Origin: Psychrobium sp. MM17-31
GTDB taxonomy: Bacteria > Pseudomonadota > Gammaproteobacteria > Enterobacterales > Psychrobiaceae
Direction of reading: 5' to 3'
NCBI RefSeq assembly: GCF_022347785.1
Contig: NZ_JAKRGA010000001.1
Location: 682,001 to 746,000 of the forward strand
DNA: 64,000 nt
The notes under the pieces are model-generated. The model did no database searches. It was not told where the DNA came from and was given only the letters and a program-made list of their open reading frames with translations. The translations under genes were made by a program, and so were the position numbers. Below are positions 39,484 through 47,328 of this stretch, in pieces (the stretch's first letter is position 1; every line of letters starts with the position of its first letter).

Positions 39484-40659
39484 TTATTCTCTCGCAAATT
39501 TATAATGTGGGCCACGTGCAGGATGCGCTGTTATCGCATGCATAAACTCCTCTAAATCTTTCAATTCTTGCTGATTGAGATTAAGTGGCTTAAGCAGATG
39601 TGAGGTCTTTGGCGATAGCGGATCATCTTTATCGACGCGCTGCGGAATTCCACCCGCATTGTAGATATTCATAATGCCGTCCATTGCCGCGAAAAACCCG
39701 TTGTGCATCCAAGGTTTGTTGTTCATCACGCCACGAAGACTTGGCGTTTTAAATTTACCAACATCCTCAGGATTTTTGGTCACTTTGTAACGCCCCAAAT
39801 CTTCAAATTTTCGTTTGTAATAGGTTAAACCGATATTGTGAAACTGCTCATCGGAAAACGTTGGACCATTGTGACAGTTAAGACAGCCAGCTTTGGTGCG
39901 AAAGAGGTGCAAACCGTTTAACGCACTATCATTCAAACTCGCTAACAACGCATCGCGACGGCGTCCCGGTTTTTCTTCAATCGCCATTAAGAAACGATCA
40001 AAGTTAGAAGTGCGTGATAGTAGCGTGCGTTCATAGGTCGCAATCGCCTGACCGATGAGCTTAGCGGTGATCTGCTCTTGGCCAAAAACAGCCTTAAATT
40101 GCTGCTTATATTCTTCATTCGCATTTAGGCGCTGCTCCAACTCGGGTAGCGTAAAGTTCATTTCTACTTTATCGACTATCGGCATTAGCGCTTGCTGTTC
40201 AAGAGTTGCGGCGCGGCCATCCCAGAATAATGTTTGACGGAACGCGGCGTTTTCAATGCCCGGCGAGTTGCGCGCTCCTGTTTGCCTGTCATGACCAAAG
40301 GATTTTTCACGGCCATCGCCCCAACCTAAATCGCGATCATGACAACTGGCGCAAGCAATCTGCCCTGAGCGCGACAGTTTAGGATCGTGAAACAGCTTTT
40401 CGCCAAGGCGCATTTTAGCGACGGAAAATGGATTGGTCGTAGGAAATGTCGGCATAGGCACTCGTCCTAGTGGACGATGCTCAATGCCTTCGCGAAGTTG
40501 TGGTTTGGGCCATTGATTTATAGGCTTGCTATATAATTTGCGTAACTGCTCTATGGTCAGCGGTACAGCAGTTTGCTGTGCGCTAGCCGCCTGAGATACT
40601 GAAAAAGATAAAATCGATGCACTGACTAATGCTATCGATAGTTTATTAATAAAATTCAC
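39484..40659 (-). CDS. Di-heme cytochrome c peroxidase/MauG-family protein
   Basis: A periplasmic protein with two covalent hemes that reduces H2O2 or oxidises a protein or small substrate. The 391-residue product has a signal peptide (about 1-27) and CxxCH heme sites at 103-107 (CASCH) and 259-263 (CLNCH). RQTLFWDGRA and KPWMHNGFF are further family blocks, the latter like the distal Met-His region of bacterial peroxidases. The start is GTG with AAGG upstream. It is the third gene of a Fur-box operon with a TonB receptor, separated from it by a terminator, so its level is probably reduced relative to the receptor. Confidence 0.9.
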   Translation of the reverse strand: MNFINKLSIALVSASILSFSVSQAASAQQTAVPLTIEQLRKLYSKPINQWPKPQLREGIEHRPLGRVPMPTFPTTNPFSVAKMRLGEKLFHDPKLSRSGQIACASCHDRDLGWGDGREKSFGHDRQTGARNSPGIENAAFRQTLFWDGRAATLEQQALMPIVDKVEMNFTLPELEQRLNANEEYKQQFKAVFGQEQITAKLIGQAIATYERTLLSRTSNFDRFLMAIEEKPGRRRDALLASLNDSALNGLHLFRTKAGCLNCHNGPTFSDEQFHNIGLTYYKRKFEDLGRYKVTKNPEDVGKFKTPSLRGVMNNKPWMHNGFFAAMDGIMNIYNAGGIPQRVDKDDPLSPKTSHLLKPLNLNQQELKDLEEFMHAITAHPARGPHYKFARE

Positions 40660-40682
40660 GGAATTGCCTTGCTATTTTTTGC

Positions 40683-40717
40683 TAAAAACAAAAAGGCTCC
40701 TAATGAATCTAGGAGCC
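40683..40717 (-). terminator. Intra-operon terminator between the TonB receptor and the peroxidase
   Basis: On the minus strand, GGCTCCTA pairs perfectly with TAGGAGCC over a 7-nt loop, followed by TTTTTGTTTTT. It starts 13 nt after the receptor stop and 24 nt before the peroxidase start. No room is left for a separate promoter, so readthrough is needed for the peroxidase. Confidence 0.85.
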
Positions 40718-40729
40718 AGTGTTTTAGTA

Positions 40730-43438
40730 TTAATGCTTGTAACTGATGCCTAACCAAAAGCGACGCCCCAACTCTAAACCGGTTGTTTTGGGTGCTATTT
40801 GATAGGTACGTTTGTTGAGTAGGTTCTCGCCGTCAAATGACAGCACTACTTTGTCTTTGCCAAATATATCGAATGAATATTTTATGCTGCCGCTGAGGAG
40901 CCAAAACGCAGGTCGTTCACCAGCAATATACAGCGGATATTCACGTTTGGATGGCGCACACCCGTTACAAATTGTGGTTGCCTCTGTGTATGACTCAAAC
41001 TGATTAGTGGCGTAAATAATATCTTGTTTACCATTATAACGCGCCGCAGCCGACAAGCGCCAAGCGCCCCACTCACCGCCCCAGCCTAAGTTAGCTACTA
41101 TTGGACGATTAAAATCACGACGTTCAAGGCCAAGATCATTGCGGGTTATTAGCGCATCCCTGTTGTTCCCGTCTGCGGTAAGGGTGCGCAAAAATACGAG
41201 TTCACTATCGTCGTAATCGAAGTTAAGAGTACTTCTTGAACCGTCAAAGTTGATCGTTTGTGTCTTGCCATCAAAGGTAGCAGCGTCTACTTTACTCACA
41301 GCATGTGACAAATTAAATTGCACGTGCTGATTATCAAAGTTTGCCATCCAGCTCAAAGAGATACGCTCATATTCGCTACTGCCATCGTTACCGCCAAAGA
41401 GCACTGATTGACCGGTTTCGTTAAAACCTTTGACACGATTAATACTGTCTTTACTTTTACGATTGAGCCACTTTGCCTCTAAGGTCCCACCTAGCAGTTG
41501 AGCTCGATACGCTAGCGTAATCTCATCACTATAGGGGGTTTTAGTATCTTTGTACTCGTAACCATAACCGGAGGTTAACTTAGCTGCTTCCCACTGTCCG
41601 GGGCGATTATTGAGGACTTTACGCACTTCTTCACGCATCGGAGTCATCGCTTCATTAAGCTTATAACTAGCAACATCGCCTTGATAATAACGATTAATAC
41701 CTAAGGTAATAGCTTGTGTAGCATCTTCAGTAAGGTCGAATTTTAATCGAGCTCGCGGTGACAGTGTATGATTCTTAAAGAAATCGTTGTATTCATAGCG
41801 TAAGCCAACGACAGCGGTTAAACGTTCCCAATCTATCTCATCTTCGATATACAGCGATAAATAGTTAACCTTAGCCTCGGCATTGCTTTGTGGTGATACT
41901 TGACGACGTTGGAAATATTGACCTGTTTGGGCAATATTTTGATCAAACAGCAACACATCTTCTGCATTGGTAAAGTCAAATGGACGCCCCAATTCGGCTT
42001 CTAATTCGGCAATTGGACGATGATATCGAGTTTCAACACAATCGACTGTATAGCCATTACAGTTAATATCAGGCGAAATAACAACGCCATTGTAAATCAC
42101 TGAATCTTCCAATCGATTGAACTGGGTGTGCTGATGCTCGAGTTTATAACCGACATTAAACTGTTGGTAACCCCAACGATGACGGATTGCATTAAGTACA
42201 AAATCTTGAGAGAAAGCTATAGTATCTTGAATTTTCTCAATATCACCGTAACCACCTTCAGCACTGACCGAGCTATCAGTATATTCGCCCCAGTTTCTGC
42301 CTTCAGCTTTAGCCCACAACAGGCGTTGTGATGAGGTTTCTTTGTTGTTGGTACTATTGCGCCAAGACAACGTACTATCAAAATCGCCCCAATCGCGATT
42401 TGCTTCCCACTGCCCTGTTACAACAAGTCCACCACCTGTCGTATTGTAATCACTATTGAGTGCATTGGTATCAAAATAATCGGCATCAAATGGTGCATAC
42501 AATAGACTCGTCGTAAGCAAATCATTAGCTGTTAAATGGTTGTGGTATTTAACCATCGCATTATAGTTCTTCTGTACTTGCTGACGATAGGTACCTAATT
42601 GGTCAAAAGACTCTTTTGATTCAAGCATTTGCAATTGAGTACTAATGCCGCTTTGCTCATTGAGCGGTGTCGAATAATAAGCACTAAAATCACGTTTGCT
42701 AAAATCTGGAATTGGTAGGGTATCATCACCACTAAATGTTGGCGCATAAAAACGTTGATACTCAACAAAACTACCTGCAGTTTGGCGATAGCTAAATCCA
42801 TATTGCGTTTTTTGCTCTGCATTCTTGGTTTTGGCTAACACTAAACCGCCAGAAAACTGGCCGTATTTAGCCGGAATGTTACTGTCGTAAACGGTCACTT
42901 CATCAAGTAATTGCAGGTTGATAAAAACTTCTTGGCTATGACCAACGACATCTTGCAACAAGTTGCGATCGGCAGTGGCATTACTGGTATTAAGCTTCGA
43001 ATTGTTGTTTATGCCATCAATACTGTAACCAGATTGTTGACCATAACTTCCCGCGATTGAAACCTCTGGCGGTTTAATGTTAGAAACTTGTCCTGATTGA
43101 TAGGCTGACTCACCATATTGCACACCTGGCAACACGCCTAGTAAATCATTGAGATTACCATTACCAAAGTTATAGTCTTCTATTAGTTTTTGATCGAGAG
43201 TATAGGAACCTTCACTCGATTGAGAAATTGGGTTAATGCGCTGGCCGACGACCTTAATTCGTTCGATTGGCTTTAAACACTGCTTATCATCCTTGGCACA
43301 CTGTTTGTTCGACACTGAATTTTTCTGTTGTTGCTCACTGGCTTTTTCCTCAACCACAGGAGTCGCAACTTTCTCTTCGCCAAACGCAACAGCAGCTAGC
43401 ACAATGCTAGCTGCTGGTAACATGTGTAAAAACTTCAT
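40730..43438 (-). CDS. TonB-dependent outer-membrane receptor
   Basis: A 902-residue receptor: signal peptide, a Lys/Glu/Gln-rich N-terminal stretch, then a TonB-box-like IERIKVVGQ near residue 58. The plug domain (about 80-200) has LNDLLGVLPGVQYGESAY and YSIDGINNN. The 22-strand barrel ends LGRRFWLGISYKH. The operon's Fur box suggests iron-regulated uptake. The ligand is not evident; neither a heme-receptor FRAP/NPNL-type motif nor a siderophore gene set was seen. It begins 6 nt after the lipoprotein gene. Confidence 0.9.
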   Translation of the reverse strand: MKFLHMLPAASIVLAAVAFGEEKVATPVVEEKASEQQQKNSVSNKQCAKDDKQCLKPIERIKVVGQRINPISQSSEGSYTLDQKLIEDYNFGNGNLNDLLGVLPGVQYGESAYQSGQVSNIKPPEVSIAGSYGQQSGYSIDGINNNSKLNTSNATADRNLLQDVVGHSQEVFINLQLLDEVTVYDSNIPAKYGQFSGGLVLAKTKNAEQKTQYGFSYRQTAGSFVEYQRFYAPTFSGDDTLPIPDFSKRDFSAYYSTPLNEQSGISTQLQMLESKESFDQLGTYRQQVQKNYNAMVKYHNHLTANDLLTTSLLYAPFDADYFDTNALNSDYNTTGGGLVVTGQWEANRDWGDFDSTLSWRNSTNNKETSSQRLLWAKAEGRNWGEYTDSSVSAEGGYGDIEKIQDTIAFSQDFVLNAIRHRWGYQQFNVGYKLEHQHTQFNRLEDSVIYNGVVISPDINCNGYTVDCVETRYHRPIAELEAELGRPFDFTNAEDVLLFDQNIAQTGQYFQRRQVSPQSNAEAKVNYLSLYIEDEIDWERLTAVVGLRYEYNDFFKNHTLSPRARLKFDLTEDATQAITLGINRYYQGDVASYKLNEAMTPMREEVRKVLNNRPGQWEAAKLTSGYGYEYKDTKTPYSDEITLAYRAQLLGGTLEAKWLNRKSKDSINRVKGFNETGQSVLFGGNDGSSEYERISLSWMANFDNQHVQFNLSHAVSKVDAATFDGKTQTINFDGSRSTLNFDYDDSELVFLRTLTADGNNRDALITRNDLGLERRDFNRPIVANLGWGGEWGAWRLSAAARYNGKQDIIYATNQFESYTEATTICNGCAPSKREYPLYIAGERPAFWLLSGSIKYSFDIFGKDKVVLSFDGENLLNKRTYQIAPKTTGLELGRRFWLGISYKH

Positions 43439-43444
43439 AGAGCT

Positions 43445-46243
43445 TTACTGTTTAGTGCTATCTAACGGGAAGCCATCCACGTCGTCATTCACACCGTCGT
43501 TATCACTGTCTTCATCAAGCGTTAAGCCCGACGCGTCAATCATTGCTTGTGTTGCAAAGGCCGCAAAGAAGTTTGGTTTACCATCTTTGTCAGTATCTAC
43601 ACTTGCAATGTTTGTGCGAGTAAAATCATCCCACGTACTCATTGCCGAAGCAGTAGCTGCATTGATTGCATCTTTTTCAACAGTACCAAGCGCTTCATTG
43701 CTAGCAATAGCGAAGGCATCGTCAAACTTGCCTAGGCTAGTAAGCTGTGCAGCGTATTTAGGTAAGAAATTTAGTTTAAACTGCAGCGCTGAATCTTCTA
43801 AATCCGTCATGTTTACTTTAATAAAGTCATGCCATGTTTTTGTTGCAGCAGCTAATGCAGCGGGCGCATCAGGGTTAACCCCCATTTCGCGTCTAATCGC
43901 ATTAACAAAACCTAAGTAATTAGTAGAAACGGATCCTGAGTTAAAGTACTTAGCAGTCACAGTACCTTTGTCTTGCTCAGCAGCGTTAGTTTCAACTTTA
44001 CGAACTAGCTCAAGCGCGCGGTTGTACATCCCTTGTGCTTTTACATAATCTTTAGCTTTATAGTAACTTTCGCCAACTTTAGTAAATAAAATAGCATCGC
44101 TTTCAATCTCTCTAGCTTTTTGAAAGTTTTCTTCAATAACAGCAACGTGTTTTGCGATAGCTTCTTTGTCATTTAGCGTTTGAGCGAAATACAGCATGGT
44201 TGCTTGTGCGTATATTGCGTCACTAACTTCGATATCTGTATCGTTGATACCGTTGTTATATTTCGTTAGAGCAATATTGCTACAAGTTGTAAACGATGCT
44301 TGCATTGCGTCAATATGTGCCTGTGATTGAGTGCGGCTTGTAATTAATTCATACTCTTCTAACACCATTTGACAGCCAGTAGAACCAGTCACGAATTGCT
44401 GTTCGACATTCTGCGCTAGGTATGCGTCAGAGCCAATAATCTCAATCCCTTTCCCCAGCATGAATACAGCATTGTCATATTGCTGCTTTTCTCTGTAAAG
44501 AATAGCCGCACCTTTAGTACCAACACGACTAAATGCCACGGTGGAGGTGAAGTGCGCACGAAGATTTTCTTCATTTTTCGCAGCTTCCAGTAATGCCAGT
44601 GCGTCTTCTTTTGTTGCAGCGTTGGAAACATTAGCTAAAAGTTTTGTCTCATTAGCGTCGTCAGTAATCCATTCTTTATAAAAATCAGTCGCCGCTTTAT
44701 CTGTTAATAGCTTAATATCAAAATCAGGATATAAATGCACAATGTCATCTGCAACACTAACCATGCCGTAAGGATATTCAACCGCAGTCACAGGCGCAGA
44801 ATCAGCAGCAGTGCGAGGGTATTCGCTGTCATAATTAACCACACCGTAAAGTGCTAATGCATCTGCAAGCGCCGTCTTGGCTTTTTCGTTTTCACCTAGC
44901 ACGCGGTACGATTCAACAACTGCTTCTAGTGCTGTATTACGTACACTGTGATAAATTTTACCCAGGTTACCATTGCGGTCATTGCTTACTAAACGGTGAC
45001 CAACTTGATTAGCATAGCCATGCAGACGATCAACATGTCTAACTGCTAGGTTGTAATTTTCGTCAGTCGGATTATTTTGCCATTGTTCGATAGCATCATT
45101 GATTATCCCGCGATAGCCAAAGTAAGCTTGCAAAACATGTGTTTCATAAGGTTTGTCTGCACCGTTTTCGAATAAAACATCTAGTACACTAAAAGCATTT
45201 GTAGCTTTCTCAGCATTACCAGCTTTAAAATAAGAATCAGAGATATCGTTGTAAAAGCTAACATCATCACGATTGAACGACGATGTACCTTTTGTTGCTA
45301 CATATTCCCCATAGAGTGCTAATGCTTGATCGCGCAACTCAGCAGCTTTAGCTTGTTTAGCTTCATCTTGCCCCTGATAGTTATTCGCAACTCCAACATA
45401 GGCCCCCGCACGCTGTTCATCACGAACAATTTTTTCATCGCTAGTTAAACGGTCAACTTCTTTTGAAAGACCAGCTGCAGCATAACCATTAGCTAACGCC
45501 GTAAATACATCACCTTGGTTTAAGTCATCTTCCAGTGCAGTGACTACTGTTTCTGCACGCTCTAATCGAGAACTATCATCTGCATAGTAGTAATAAGCAC
45601 GGTCGGCATTGCTGGCTGCGCTAGATGAAAGTGCAAGCGTTTCGGTAACTTCACCGCCATTGCCATCGCTAACTTTAACTTCGACTGAGTCATTCACAAC
45701 GCTTAATTCGTTAGGCGTGTAAGTAATTGCACCTGTTGCGCTGTCTAGAGTCAATGTTCCTTTGGTTGGCTCTGTAACTACGCTATAAGTTAAGGTATCA
45801 CCATCAATATCTTGTGCATCTACCGTTGCTGTTTTCGTTTCGCCGCCAGTTAATACAAGCTTTTCAGAGTCAATGGTTGGTGCATCATTTACATTTTCAA
45901 CCGTCACCGTCACCTGAGCGCTTACCGTGGCTTTTCCATCAGAAACAGAAACACTAAAGGTATCTTGACCGTTAAAGTTTGCGTCAGGTGTGTAGGTTAA
46001 TTCGCCATTAGCAGCTACTTCTACTGTACCATTGGCAGGTGCATTTCCTAATGAATATGACAATACATCACTGTTATTAGCATCCGTTGCTGTTGCTGTT
46101 AATTTGCCGCTCGCATCCTCTTGAACCGACAACGTATAACTAGATTGAGAGAACTCAGGAACTGAATTGCTAGAACTCCCGCCACAAGCGGTTAACGTAG
46201 CAACTGCAGCAGCTACGGGTAATAGTTTAAATGTATTTTTCAT
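43445..46243 (-). CDS. Ig-like/helical-repeat/calcium-repeat surface lipoprotein, partner of a TonB receptor
   Basis: A 932-residue lipoprotein (lipobox LTACGG, Cys20). It has two cadherin/Ig-like repeats (about 28-118 and 118-205) with DANFNGQDTFSVSVSDG and VTVTVENVNDAPTID. A long TPR-like helical region of about 650 residues follows (for example YNDISDSYFKAGNAEKA and VGESYYKAKDYVKAQGMYNR). Type-3 calcium repeats close the protein (DTDKDGKPNF, DSDNDGVNDDVDGFPLD). It is the first gene of a Fur-box operon and ends 6 nt before a TonB receptor. A SusD-like capping role at the cell surface is inference. Confidence 0.85.
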   Translation of the reverse strand: MKNTFKLLPVAAAVATLTACGGSSSNSVPEFSQSSYTLSVQEDASGKLTATATDANNSDVLSYSLGNAPANGTVEVAANGELTYTPDANFNGQDTFSVSVSDGKATVSAQVTVTVENVNDAPTIDSEKLVLTGGETKTATVDAQDIDGDTLTYSVVTEPTKGTLTLDSATGAITYTPNELSVVNDSVEVKVSDGNGGEVTETLALSSSAASNADRAYYYYADDSSRLERAETVVTALEDDLNQGDVFTALANGYAAAGLSKEVDRLTSDEKIVRDEQRAGAYVGVANNYQGQDEAKQAKAAELRDQALALYGEYVATKGTSSFNRDDVSFYNDISDSYFKAGNAEKATNAFSVLDVLFENGADKPYETHVLQAYFGYRGIINDAIEQWQNNPTDENYNLAVRHVDRLHGYANQVGHRLVSNDRNGNLGKIYHSVRNTALEAVVESYRVLGENEKAKTALADALALYGVVNYDSEYPRTAADSAPVTAVEYPYGMVSVADDIVHLYPDFDIKLLTDKAATDFYKEWITDDANETKLLANVSNAATKEDALALLEAAKNEENLRAHFTSTVAFSRVGTKGAAILYREKQQYDNAVFMLGKGIEIIGSDAYLAQNVEQQFVTGSTGCQMVLEEYELITSRTQSQAHIDAMQASFTTCSNIALTKYNNGINDTDIEVSDAIYAQATMLYFAQTLNDKEAIAKHVAVIEENFQKAREIESDAILFTKVGESYYKAKDYVKAQGMYNRALELVRKVETNAAEQDKGTVTAKYFNSGSVSTNYLGFVNAIRREMGVNPDAPAALAAATKTWHDFIKVNMTDLEDSALQFKLNFLPKYAAQLTSLGKFDDAFAIASNEALGTVEKDAINAATASAMSTWDDFTRTNIASVDTDKDGKPNFFAAFATQAMIDASGLTLDEDSDNDGVNDDVDGFPLDSTKQ

Positions 46244-46269
46244 AACACCTCCGATAAGAAAGGTACGCG

Positions 46270-46298
46270 ATCTTAATGCAAACCATTCTCAATTTCAA
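46270..46298 (-). promoter_or_regulatory. Promoter of the lipoprotein-TonB-peroxidase operon
   Basis: On the minus strand: TTGAAA (46293-46298), a 17-nt spacer and TAAGAT (46270-46275). An excellent GGAGG site precedes the ATG. The remaining 46299-46527 shows only a weak hairpin after the phosphatase gene and no further gene. Confidence 0.65.
46275..46293. promoter_or_regulatory. Fur box inside the operon promoter
   Basis: The 19-nt site reads AATGCAAACCATTCTCAAT on the plus strand. It matches a standard Fur-box form (AATGATAATCATTCTCATT) at 15 of 19 positions by direct count. It fills the spacer between -35 and -10, so iron-loaded Fur would block RNA polymerase. Confidence 0.75.
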
Positions 46299-46527: not shown

Positions 46528-47328
46528 TTAATGGCCCCAAGAACCATACATGGCGTTTGGTAAGATCAAAATGTCTTGTGCTTGACGTTGTAAAAGCTTA
46601 GAAATATCAGCATTTTTTTGCGTTGTTTGTGCGATATCTTCGATATTATCGCCCACTTGCATTACCAAGGTAAAATCGCGATTCCACAGAGTTTTTAACG
46701 CTTTGTCTTGTGCCCAACACTGAGTTGCTTTACCTGAAGTAAACTCATTACGGCGTAGATCTTTGTCATTGATAATAGTTTTATGATCGATGGCTTTTTT
46801 GTCTTGTGGACGCTTGCCCGTTAAACAGGTATTTTTGGCATCGATAGGAAAGCCAACACTCACTAAGTTTTGCCAAGTATCACCATCGTCTAAATGATTG
46901 CGATTGGTCACAAAGGCTAATTGTCCGCCTAATTCAATTACCGTTTTCACAAATTCAATGGCTCCTGGAATGGCGGTAGCGTTTTTCTCTTGTACCCAAG
47001 CACGCCAGCTATCACTGGTGTAACTGCCGCCAGTTAAGTCCAAACGTTTGTTGTAATCGCTGTTATTTAGCAGTGTTTCATCCACATCCATAATCACTAA
47101 CCAAGGTGTTTTAGGTAATTGACGTTCTTTTAAACTTTGCGTTGCTTGTTGATAAAGGTAGCTAGTGATTAGTGGAAACTCTTTACTTTGCTGTGTCCAT
47201 TTTACCCCAGTGCTTAGTCCGAGTTTCTTAGCGGCTGTAGATTTATTATTGGTGGGATTAGCCTGAAGTTGGCCAACGCTTGCTAAGCACAAGCTCGCCG
47301 CTAATACACTTGAGATGACTTTGTTCAT
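46528..47328 (-). CDS. HAD-family acid phosphatase / 5'-nucleotidase (lipoprotein e(P4)-like), exported
   Basis: A class IIIB HAD phosphatase that removes phosphate from nucleotides in the periplasm. The 266-residue product has a signal peptide (about 1-23). Motif I is VIMDVDETLLNNS (the first D is the nucleophile), motif II LAFVTNRN, and the end has VMQVGDNIEDI with the acidic motif. WRAWVQEKNATAIPGAIEF is typical of the e(P4) group. No lipobox Cys is seen, so the enzyme should be soluble in the periplasm. Confidence 0.9.
   Translation of the reverse strand: MNKVISSVLAASLCLASVGQLQANPTNNKSTAAKKLGLSTGVKWTQQSKEFPLITSYLYQQATQSLKERQLPKTPWLVIMDVDETLLNNSDYNKRLDLTGGSYTSDSWRAWVQEKNATAIPGAIEFVKTVIELGGQLAFVTNRNHLDDGDTWQNLVSVGFPIDAKNTCLTGKRPQDKKAIDHKTIINDKDLRRNEFTSGKATQCWAQDKALKTLWNRDFTLVMQVGDNIEDIAQTTQKNADISKLLQRQAQDILILPNAMYGSWGH

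Follow-up and report, generated by a model that had tools for sequence, protein, structure and literature searches.

A FusA-family receptor operon of Psychrobium sp. MM17-31 with a conserved large lipoprotein and a two-heme enzyme: a candidate Fur-controlled iron-protein importer

A three-gene operon in a 64,000-nucleotide stretch of the Psychrobium sp. MM17-31 genome (hereafter, the window) is best read as a Fur-controlled outer-membrane importer of the FusA kind, in which a large lipoprotein (hereafter, LIPO) would capture a small iron protein and a two-heme enzyme would free its iron oxidatively. We put the probability of this reading at roughly one half. It is supported here by the conserved pairing of LIPO with the receptor, the family to which the receptor belongs, the exchange of the two-heme enzyme for a FusC-like protease in some relatives, the conserved catalytic residues of the enzyme and a conserved Fur-like site. 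We infer a protein substrate, a capture role and surface position for LIPO, and release by oxidation.

The features of the operon are listed in Table 1. All three genes lie on the minus strand in the order LIPO, receptor, two-heme gene, with 6 nt separating the first two, and every element of the layout given by an earlier sequence-only reading was recovered: the lipoprotein, the short gap, the TonB receptor and a CCP_MauG protein with two CxxCH motifs. That reading had also reported that a partner for siderophore, heme or copper (MbnP-type) uptake is absent, and this holds for the six neighbouring genes scanned (36.2–50.9 kb). Neighbours above family cut-offs are a serine hydroxymethyltransferase, an RNA methyltransferase, an acid phosphatase and a GH109-like oxidoreductase, which are unrelated to the operon. 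The gene upstream on the same strand (window 46528–47328) encodes a HAD acid phosphatase of the e(P4)/5'-nucleotidase type, and in L049, a near relative, a gene of equal length (266 aa) likewise lies 5' of the three genes.

Table 1. Features of the operon and its promoter region (window coordinates)
Feature	Position	Strand	Basis
Fur-like site, 17.8 bits	46278..46296	-	motif from 37 other LIPO promoters; plain consensus
sigma-70-like hexamers TTGAAA-17-TAAGAT, overlapped by the Fur-like site	46270..46298	-	sequence scan
LIPO, 932-aa lipoprotein	43445..46243	-	ORF; lipobox LTAC-GG; two domains of Ig/cadherin type; body of ~670 aa, TPR signal weak; C-terminus Asp-rich, of calcium type
Ig/cadherin-like domains of LIPO, residues ~29-205	45629..46159	-	PF17963, PF17892, PF17803
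C-terminal calcium-type motif DxDxDGxxN-FF ... DxDxDxDxxxDxxD, residues 883-926	43466..43597	-	sequence; alignment of 39 rows
902-aa TonB-dependent receptor, FusA/YddB family	40730..43438	-	ORF, profile match, tree
Terminator-like hairpin and T-run between receptor and two-heme gene	40695..40717	-	sequence scan
391-aa two-heme CCP_MauG enzyme	39484..40659	-	two CxxCH, W146, Q156/P160/E166 peroxide pocket, Y333

A receptor profile of 39 rows was searched against all PDB sequences. FusA (447.9 bits) and YddB (321.6 bits) were returned far ahead of the next protein (18.8 bits), with neither FhuA nor PhuR above 15 bits. At least 90% of 82 FusA-family rows share a Cys pair and many further residues, and in a tree of those 82 rows the window receptor falls within a 17-row clade, every member of which is accompanied by a two-heme enzyme. 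The receptor alignment comprised the window and 38 of the 39 rows at 950 bits or more, the truncated L055 being left out. Judged by sequence, then, the receptor is a member of the FusA/YddB ('protease-associated import') family. The earlier statement that no nameable cassette fits this operon is not supported, given this assignment and given that CCP genes beside FusA homologues that lack FusC are already in print (PMC6793856). A second, divergent LIPO-receptor-two-heme trio is present in the same genome (L036:8129-14775; G000 contig C4, about 388129-394775); it belongs to a different clade of the receptor tree, and its substrate is possibly different.

The two Ig/cadherin-like repeats (PF17963, 6.9e-26) and the calcium-type C-terminus that had been proposed for LIPO were both borne out, the latter being Asp-rich with nine Asp invariant among 39 aligned rows. 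The helical-repeat body placed between them is weakly sustained, by a TPR match below its cut-off (PF13424, 3.7e-4) and by short TPR matches in the PDB. Invariant in the same rows are three Cys (the lipid Cys20, C624 and C654), Tyr219 and Tyr505; Tyr218 is kept as Tyr in 37 of 39 rows and Tyr220 in 34. A search for SlipAM/Slam gave no match, but the controls were equally silent. The C-terminal motif recurs, without the rest of LIPO, in a 3316-aa open frame (L142, G110 contig C1). No description of LIPO was found in the open-access literature searched.

A lipoprotein gene directly beside that of a TonB-dependent receptor recalls the SusCD, BtuG-BtuB and XusAB systems. By family profiles LIPO differs from their lipoproteins in its domain make-up, and it gave no match to the SusD/RagB domain. 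A SusCD-type pair was rejected for want of this match, and the suggestion that LIPO serves the receptor as SusD serves SusC stands as a functional analogy, not a structural one. XusAB is a lipoprotein-receptor pair that passes iron chelates (PMC13142918), and so provides a precedent for an alternative in which LIPO would act as XusB does for XusA within a xenosiderophore or heme importer, a role with which the PepSY and ABC genes near some relatives would agree. We hold this to be the least probable of the alternatives considered here, given a receptor of FusA/YddB type, far from the other solved receptors named above, and the FusC/PqqL-type proteases found in some loci.

The pairing of LIPO with the receptor was followed in 394 genomes of the order, which yielded, among the matches listed, 14 full-length LIPO relatives in 13 genomes. 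A profile of the body confirmed the same number of full-length bodies; the remaining matches listed correspond to the N-terminal Ig part or to further pieces of the full-length relatives. In two more genomes (G110 and G072) the match is confined to the calcium-type motif of the C-terminus. In the same 394 genomes the receptor profile gave 14 matches above 1000 bits, in exactly the 13 genomes with LIPO. Another 35 genomes returned receptor matches of 264 bits at most, and none of them has a full-length LIPO. Among 369 genomes of the class, LIPO and a strong receptor occur together in three (two of them shared with the order set), and a fourth (G563) has a 144-bit receptor only and no LIPO. In these searches the best two or three candidates were scored per genome (two for the receptor in the order), so that paralogues may be missed.

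Thirteen neighbourhoods from the order genomes (L036-L048, including the second copy in the same genome) were compared. LIPO adjoins the receptor in 12, in divergent orientation in L041, and the lone non-paired case, L045, ends at a contig edge. The two-heme gene is present in 10 of the 13, being missing from L038, L041 and L045. Pairwise distances correlate most strongly between LIPO and receptor (r 0.92), followed by LIPO and CCP (0.83) and receptor and CCP (0.80), with shared ancestry contributing to all three values. Homologous lipoproteins thus do occur with this receptor in other genomes. One-to-one co-occurrence in 13 of the 394 order genomes, together with the adjacency seen in 38 of 39 close loci (described below), leads us to reject a chance neighbourhood and bears out the view of LIPO as a true partner of the receptor.

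A scan of public contigs with the receptor profile provided a broader set of 80 loci from 316 relatives, of which the lower-scoring part is a sample; the set overlaps the 13 order neighbourhoods, with at least eight contigs of equal length. Neighbours were counted within 6.5 kb, and loci with a receptor above 900 bits (n=39) were termed close. LIPO is found in 38 close loci, each time directly before the receptor, the exception (L055) starting at a contig edge. The two-heme enzyme is present in 37 and a FusC/PqqL-type M16 protease in four; both occur in two, and one or the other in 39/39. In the 22 intermediate loci the counts are 19 for LIPO, eight for the two-heme enzyme, six for M16 and eight for neither enzyme. 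In the 19 distant loci they are one for LIPO, zero for the two-heme enzyme and seven for M16; this set includes loci of Pectobacterium, Klebsiella, Erwinia and Dickeya with M16 directly 3' of the receptor.

Overall, 47 of the 51 LIPO loci with full 6.5-kb flanks carry one of the two enzymes. The four LIPO-receptor loci with full flanks that carry neither nearby (L082, L085, L094 and L114) are more distant. L082, L085 and L094 are Ectothiorhodospira loci, in which a lipoprotein relative lies on both sides of the receptor. Desulfuromonadales-type FusA relatives without a lipoprotein were also encountered (L101, L104, L110, L111, L113 and L122), with genes of ~670-760 aa on the opposite strand downstream.

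The M16 profile was built from six loci that include L065, L102 and L112, and for this reason the proteases of these three and of L090 were each checked individually against the PDB. The two loci that have M16 but lack the two-heme enzyme, L112 and L090, gave as their best matches PDB entries 6b03/6brs/6b05, which we take to be FusC, at 2e-121 and 2e-47, respectively. In the two that carry both enzymes, L065 and L102, the best match is PqqL (2e-88 and 1.4e-79), and FusC is matched at 3e-43 or better. The presence of a FusC-like protease where the two-heme enzyme is lacking makes the two enzymes look like alternative processing factors. Two further relatives stand outside the set of 39. L038 lacks the two-heme enzyme and encodes an M16 protease together with DUF4920 and PepSY, and L041 (L041:5821-11898), a close relative with LIPO and receptor divergent, has neither enzyme within 20 kb and is an exception to the pattern. 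In L102 (L102:296-14235) M16, LIPO, receptor, DUF4920, PepSY, ABC, a 221-aa gene type, DUF4857 and CCP are gathered in one locus, which may show the complete pathway. The DUF4920 and PepSY-TM pair that is operon-linked in relatives is found unlinked in the Psychrobium genome itself, at L188:4727-5750.

Neither an M16 protease nor a dedicated TonB (FusB-like) gene, the latter sought as TonB_C, was found among the six scanned window neighbours (36.2–50.9 kb). Several generic M16 proteases are encoded elsewhere in the genome, the best scoring 41 bits to the FusC-like L112 protein. This leaves room for an alternative in which the importer is the same FusA-family iron-protein importer, an unlinked protease frees the iron, and the two-heme enzyme might be no more than a peroxidase, an auxiliary that guards the periplasm against peroxide and Fenton chemistry as iron enters. 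Peroxidase activity is common among bCCP/MauG proteins, this one keeps the peroxide pocket, and the two loci with both enzymes also fit. The enzyme is linked in all but two of the 39 close loci, and those two (L090 and L112) carry a FusC-like protease; this tells against an auxiliary role, and we regard this alternative as rather unlikely, albeit the strongest competitor to oxidative release.

The third gene product matches PF03150 (CCP_MauG) at 1.3e-53. In an alignment of 43 rows (the window and 42 of 44 CCP rows, two long opposite-strand proteins, L086 and L097, being left out), W146, E166 and Y333 show no variation; Q156 and P160 are conserved in at least 90%. The W-Q-P-E spacing equals that of Trp93, Gln103, Pro107 and the pocket Glu in MauG, the last of which is presumably Glu113. 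Y333 aligns with MauG residue 294. For Trp93, Gln103 and Pro107 of MauG we refer to PMC6405878. The window enzyme therefore shares with MauG, MbnH and BthA two CxxCH hemes, a Gln-Pro-Glu pocket and a Tyr at the six-coordinate heme position, and has Trp as in MauG; it differs in its gene partners and in lying under the NCBIfam equivalog cut-offs of both MauG (210.6 versus 443.85) and MbnH (203.5 versus 362.85). A Tyr aligned with that of MauG is also found in three CCP-like proteins encoded elsewhere in this genome, unlinked to the operon, indicating that this residue marks a branch of the superfamily and not this operon.

The C-terminal part of the enzyme matches PDB entry 6e1c, which we take to be MbnH, at 4.5e-9 and MauG at 0.0012; the 12 matches listed include no classical bacterial CCP. 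Over the full length 6e1c is matched at E 2e-59, and classical CCPs score equally. The full-length match to 6e1c and the match to MauG, along with the conserved Tyr and Asp residues of LIPO, are what might be expected if the enzyme acted in maturation, in the manner of MbnP/MbnH, by oxidising residues of LIPO or of the receptor into a metal site for uptake of a metal or metal complex. However, none of the four Trp residues of LIPO is conserved at 90% or more in the 39 rows, which argues against MbnP-like Trp maturation of LIPO, and no MbnP family was matched; a standard MbnPH copper pair was rejected on these two grounds. With the MauG and MbnH cut-offs missed and LIPO-receptor loci known that lack the enzyme (L038, L041, L090 and L112), we consider such a maturation role improbable. 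Oxidative release from an imported protein remains the preferred reading. Given the peroxide pocket and the position of the Tyr, an oxidative reaction is no less likely than reduction of the imported protein.

The promoter proposed earlier, with a Fur box in its spacer, was recovered insofar as both the hexamers and an overlapping Fur-like site are present. The count of 15/19 attached to that box is wrong and was rejected: upstream of LIPO the 19-nt Fur consensus is matched at no more than 13/19 positions. In the window 36 positions score 13/19 or higher, so the plain consensus count alone proves little. Promoter-like sites are likewise no commoner in the window than in shuffled sequence (14 found, against a mean of 14.8). 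A motif seeded with the Fur consensus, symmetrised, and derived from 37 of 38 LIPO promoters (which are not independent; L049, a near copy of the window, was omitted) was more discriminating, ranking 46278-46296 first of 63,982 window positions, with the next position at 13.9 bits. Fur matches of at least 14/19 occur upstream of 18 of 56 LIPO genes versus 20 of 437 other genes (Fisher p 4e-9, with loci that are not independent), and upstream of only 2 of 52 receptor genes and 2 of 42 CCP genes at the same loci. In L049 the Fur-like site reaches 12/19, a value equalled by 47% of shuffles. The genome encodes a strong Fur homologue (154.7 bits). Taken together, the sites make control of the operon by iron and Fur likely. 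Accessory genes near relatives (DUF4857, ABC and PepSY) are named like those of BT3625-BT3633 in B. thetaiotaomicron, which rise 36–128-fold in low iron (PMC10434189).

Whether such control would extend to the third gene depends on the transcription unit. The terminator-like hairpin 5' of the two-heme gene makes its co-transcription uncertain in the window, and no good Fur-like site lies 5' of this gene (10/19 at best). The scan found no such hairpin in L049 and found one in 6 of the 20 close loci in which the gap from receptor to CCP exceeds 20 nt, so that the terminator is not a conserved feature. Of the 36 close loci with a two-heme gene no more than 2 kb downstream, 14 show an overlap between the longest frame of that gene and the receptor gene, and in those lineages it is most likely part of the operon. 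Three Shewanella loci (L053, L054 and L055) have a 107–109-aa open frame between the receptor and two-heme genes.

Across the loci LIPO is constant and the enzyme varies, being two-heme or M16, with two close loci that have both and a few loci that have neither; capture, import and oxidative release is the simplest reading of this pattern. In the scheme that we propose, Fur would sit on the promoter when iron is replete and the operon would be made in iron shortage. The large, calcium-stabilised LIPO would then capture a small iron-containing protein, for which a ferredoxin-like protein or a small cytochrome is a candidate, and would hand it to the FusA-family receptor for TonB-driven import. 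Once in the periplasm, the imported protein or its cofactor would be oxidised by the MauG/MbnH-like enzyme with peroxide and the iron so released, a task that falls to the protease FusC in the classical system.

In that system, ferredoxin binds to FusA and is pulled in by FusB, and cleavage by FusC sets its iron-sulfur cluster free (PMC7593965). The operon resembles Fus (FusA-FusB-FusC-FusD) of Pectobacterium and YddB/PqqL of E. coli in its receptor family, in the FusC/PqqL-type protease of some close relatives and probably in control by iron. Its scanned neighbours include neither an M16 protease nor a dedicated TonB gene, and it differs further in the constant ~930-aa Ig/TPR/calcium lipoprotein and in having a two-heme enzyme in the place of the protease. 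Also close are the clusters described by Grinter et al. 2019, where cytochrome c peroxidase family genes lie beside FusA homologues, in multiple cases lacking FusC, and where reduction of the imported protein was suggested for the CCP genes (PMC6793856). The association of receptor and two-heme gene is of the same kind as here. In that account the CCP link is named for an Achromobacter cluster, and a Pseudoalteromonas cluster is mentioned solely with respect to its marine/environmental origin; the word 'lipoprotein' is absent from the main text, and the supplementary table may list a lipoprotein gene (PMC6793856).

The link between receptor and CCP is therefore already in print, and the constant lipoprotein partner is the part not met with in the literature searched. 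The variant is spread through cultured marine bacteria, and LIPO relatives lie beside related receptors in Desulfobacterota and Deferribacterota. More tentatively, and with somewhat more doubt than belief, we suggest that a whole branch of FusA-type protein importers pairs a giant calcium-binding capture lipoprotein with peroxide-driven iron release by a bis-heme enzyme, an iron piracy that would be oxidative and not proteolytic. Import of a whole protein for its iron has been shown for plant ferredoxin in Pectobacterium. If our reading is true, the operon would add a second way to release iron from an imported protein, together with a large lipoprotein for its capture, and it makes the substrates of marine FusA relatives a testable question.
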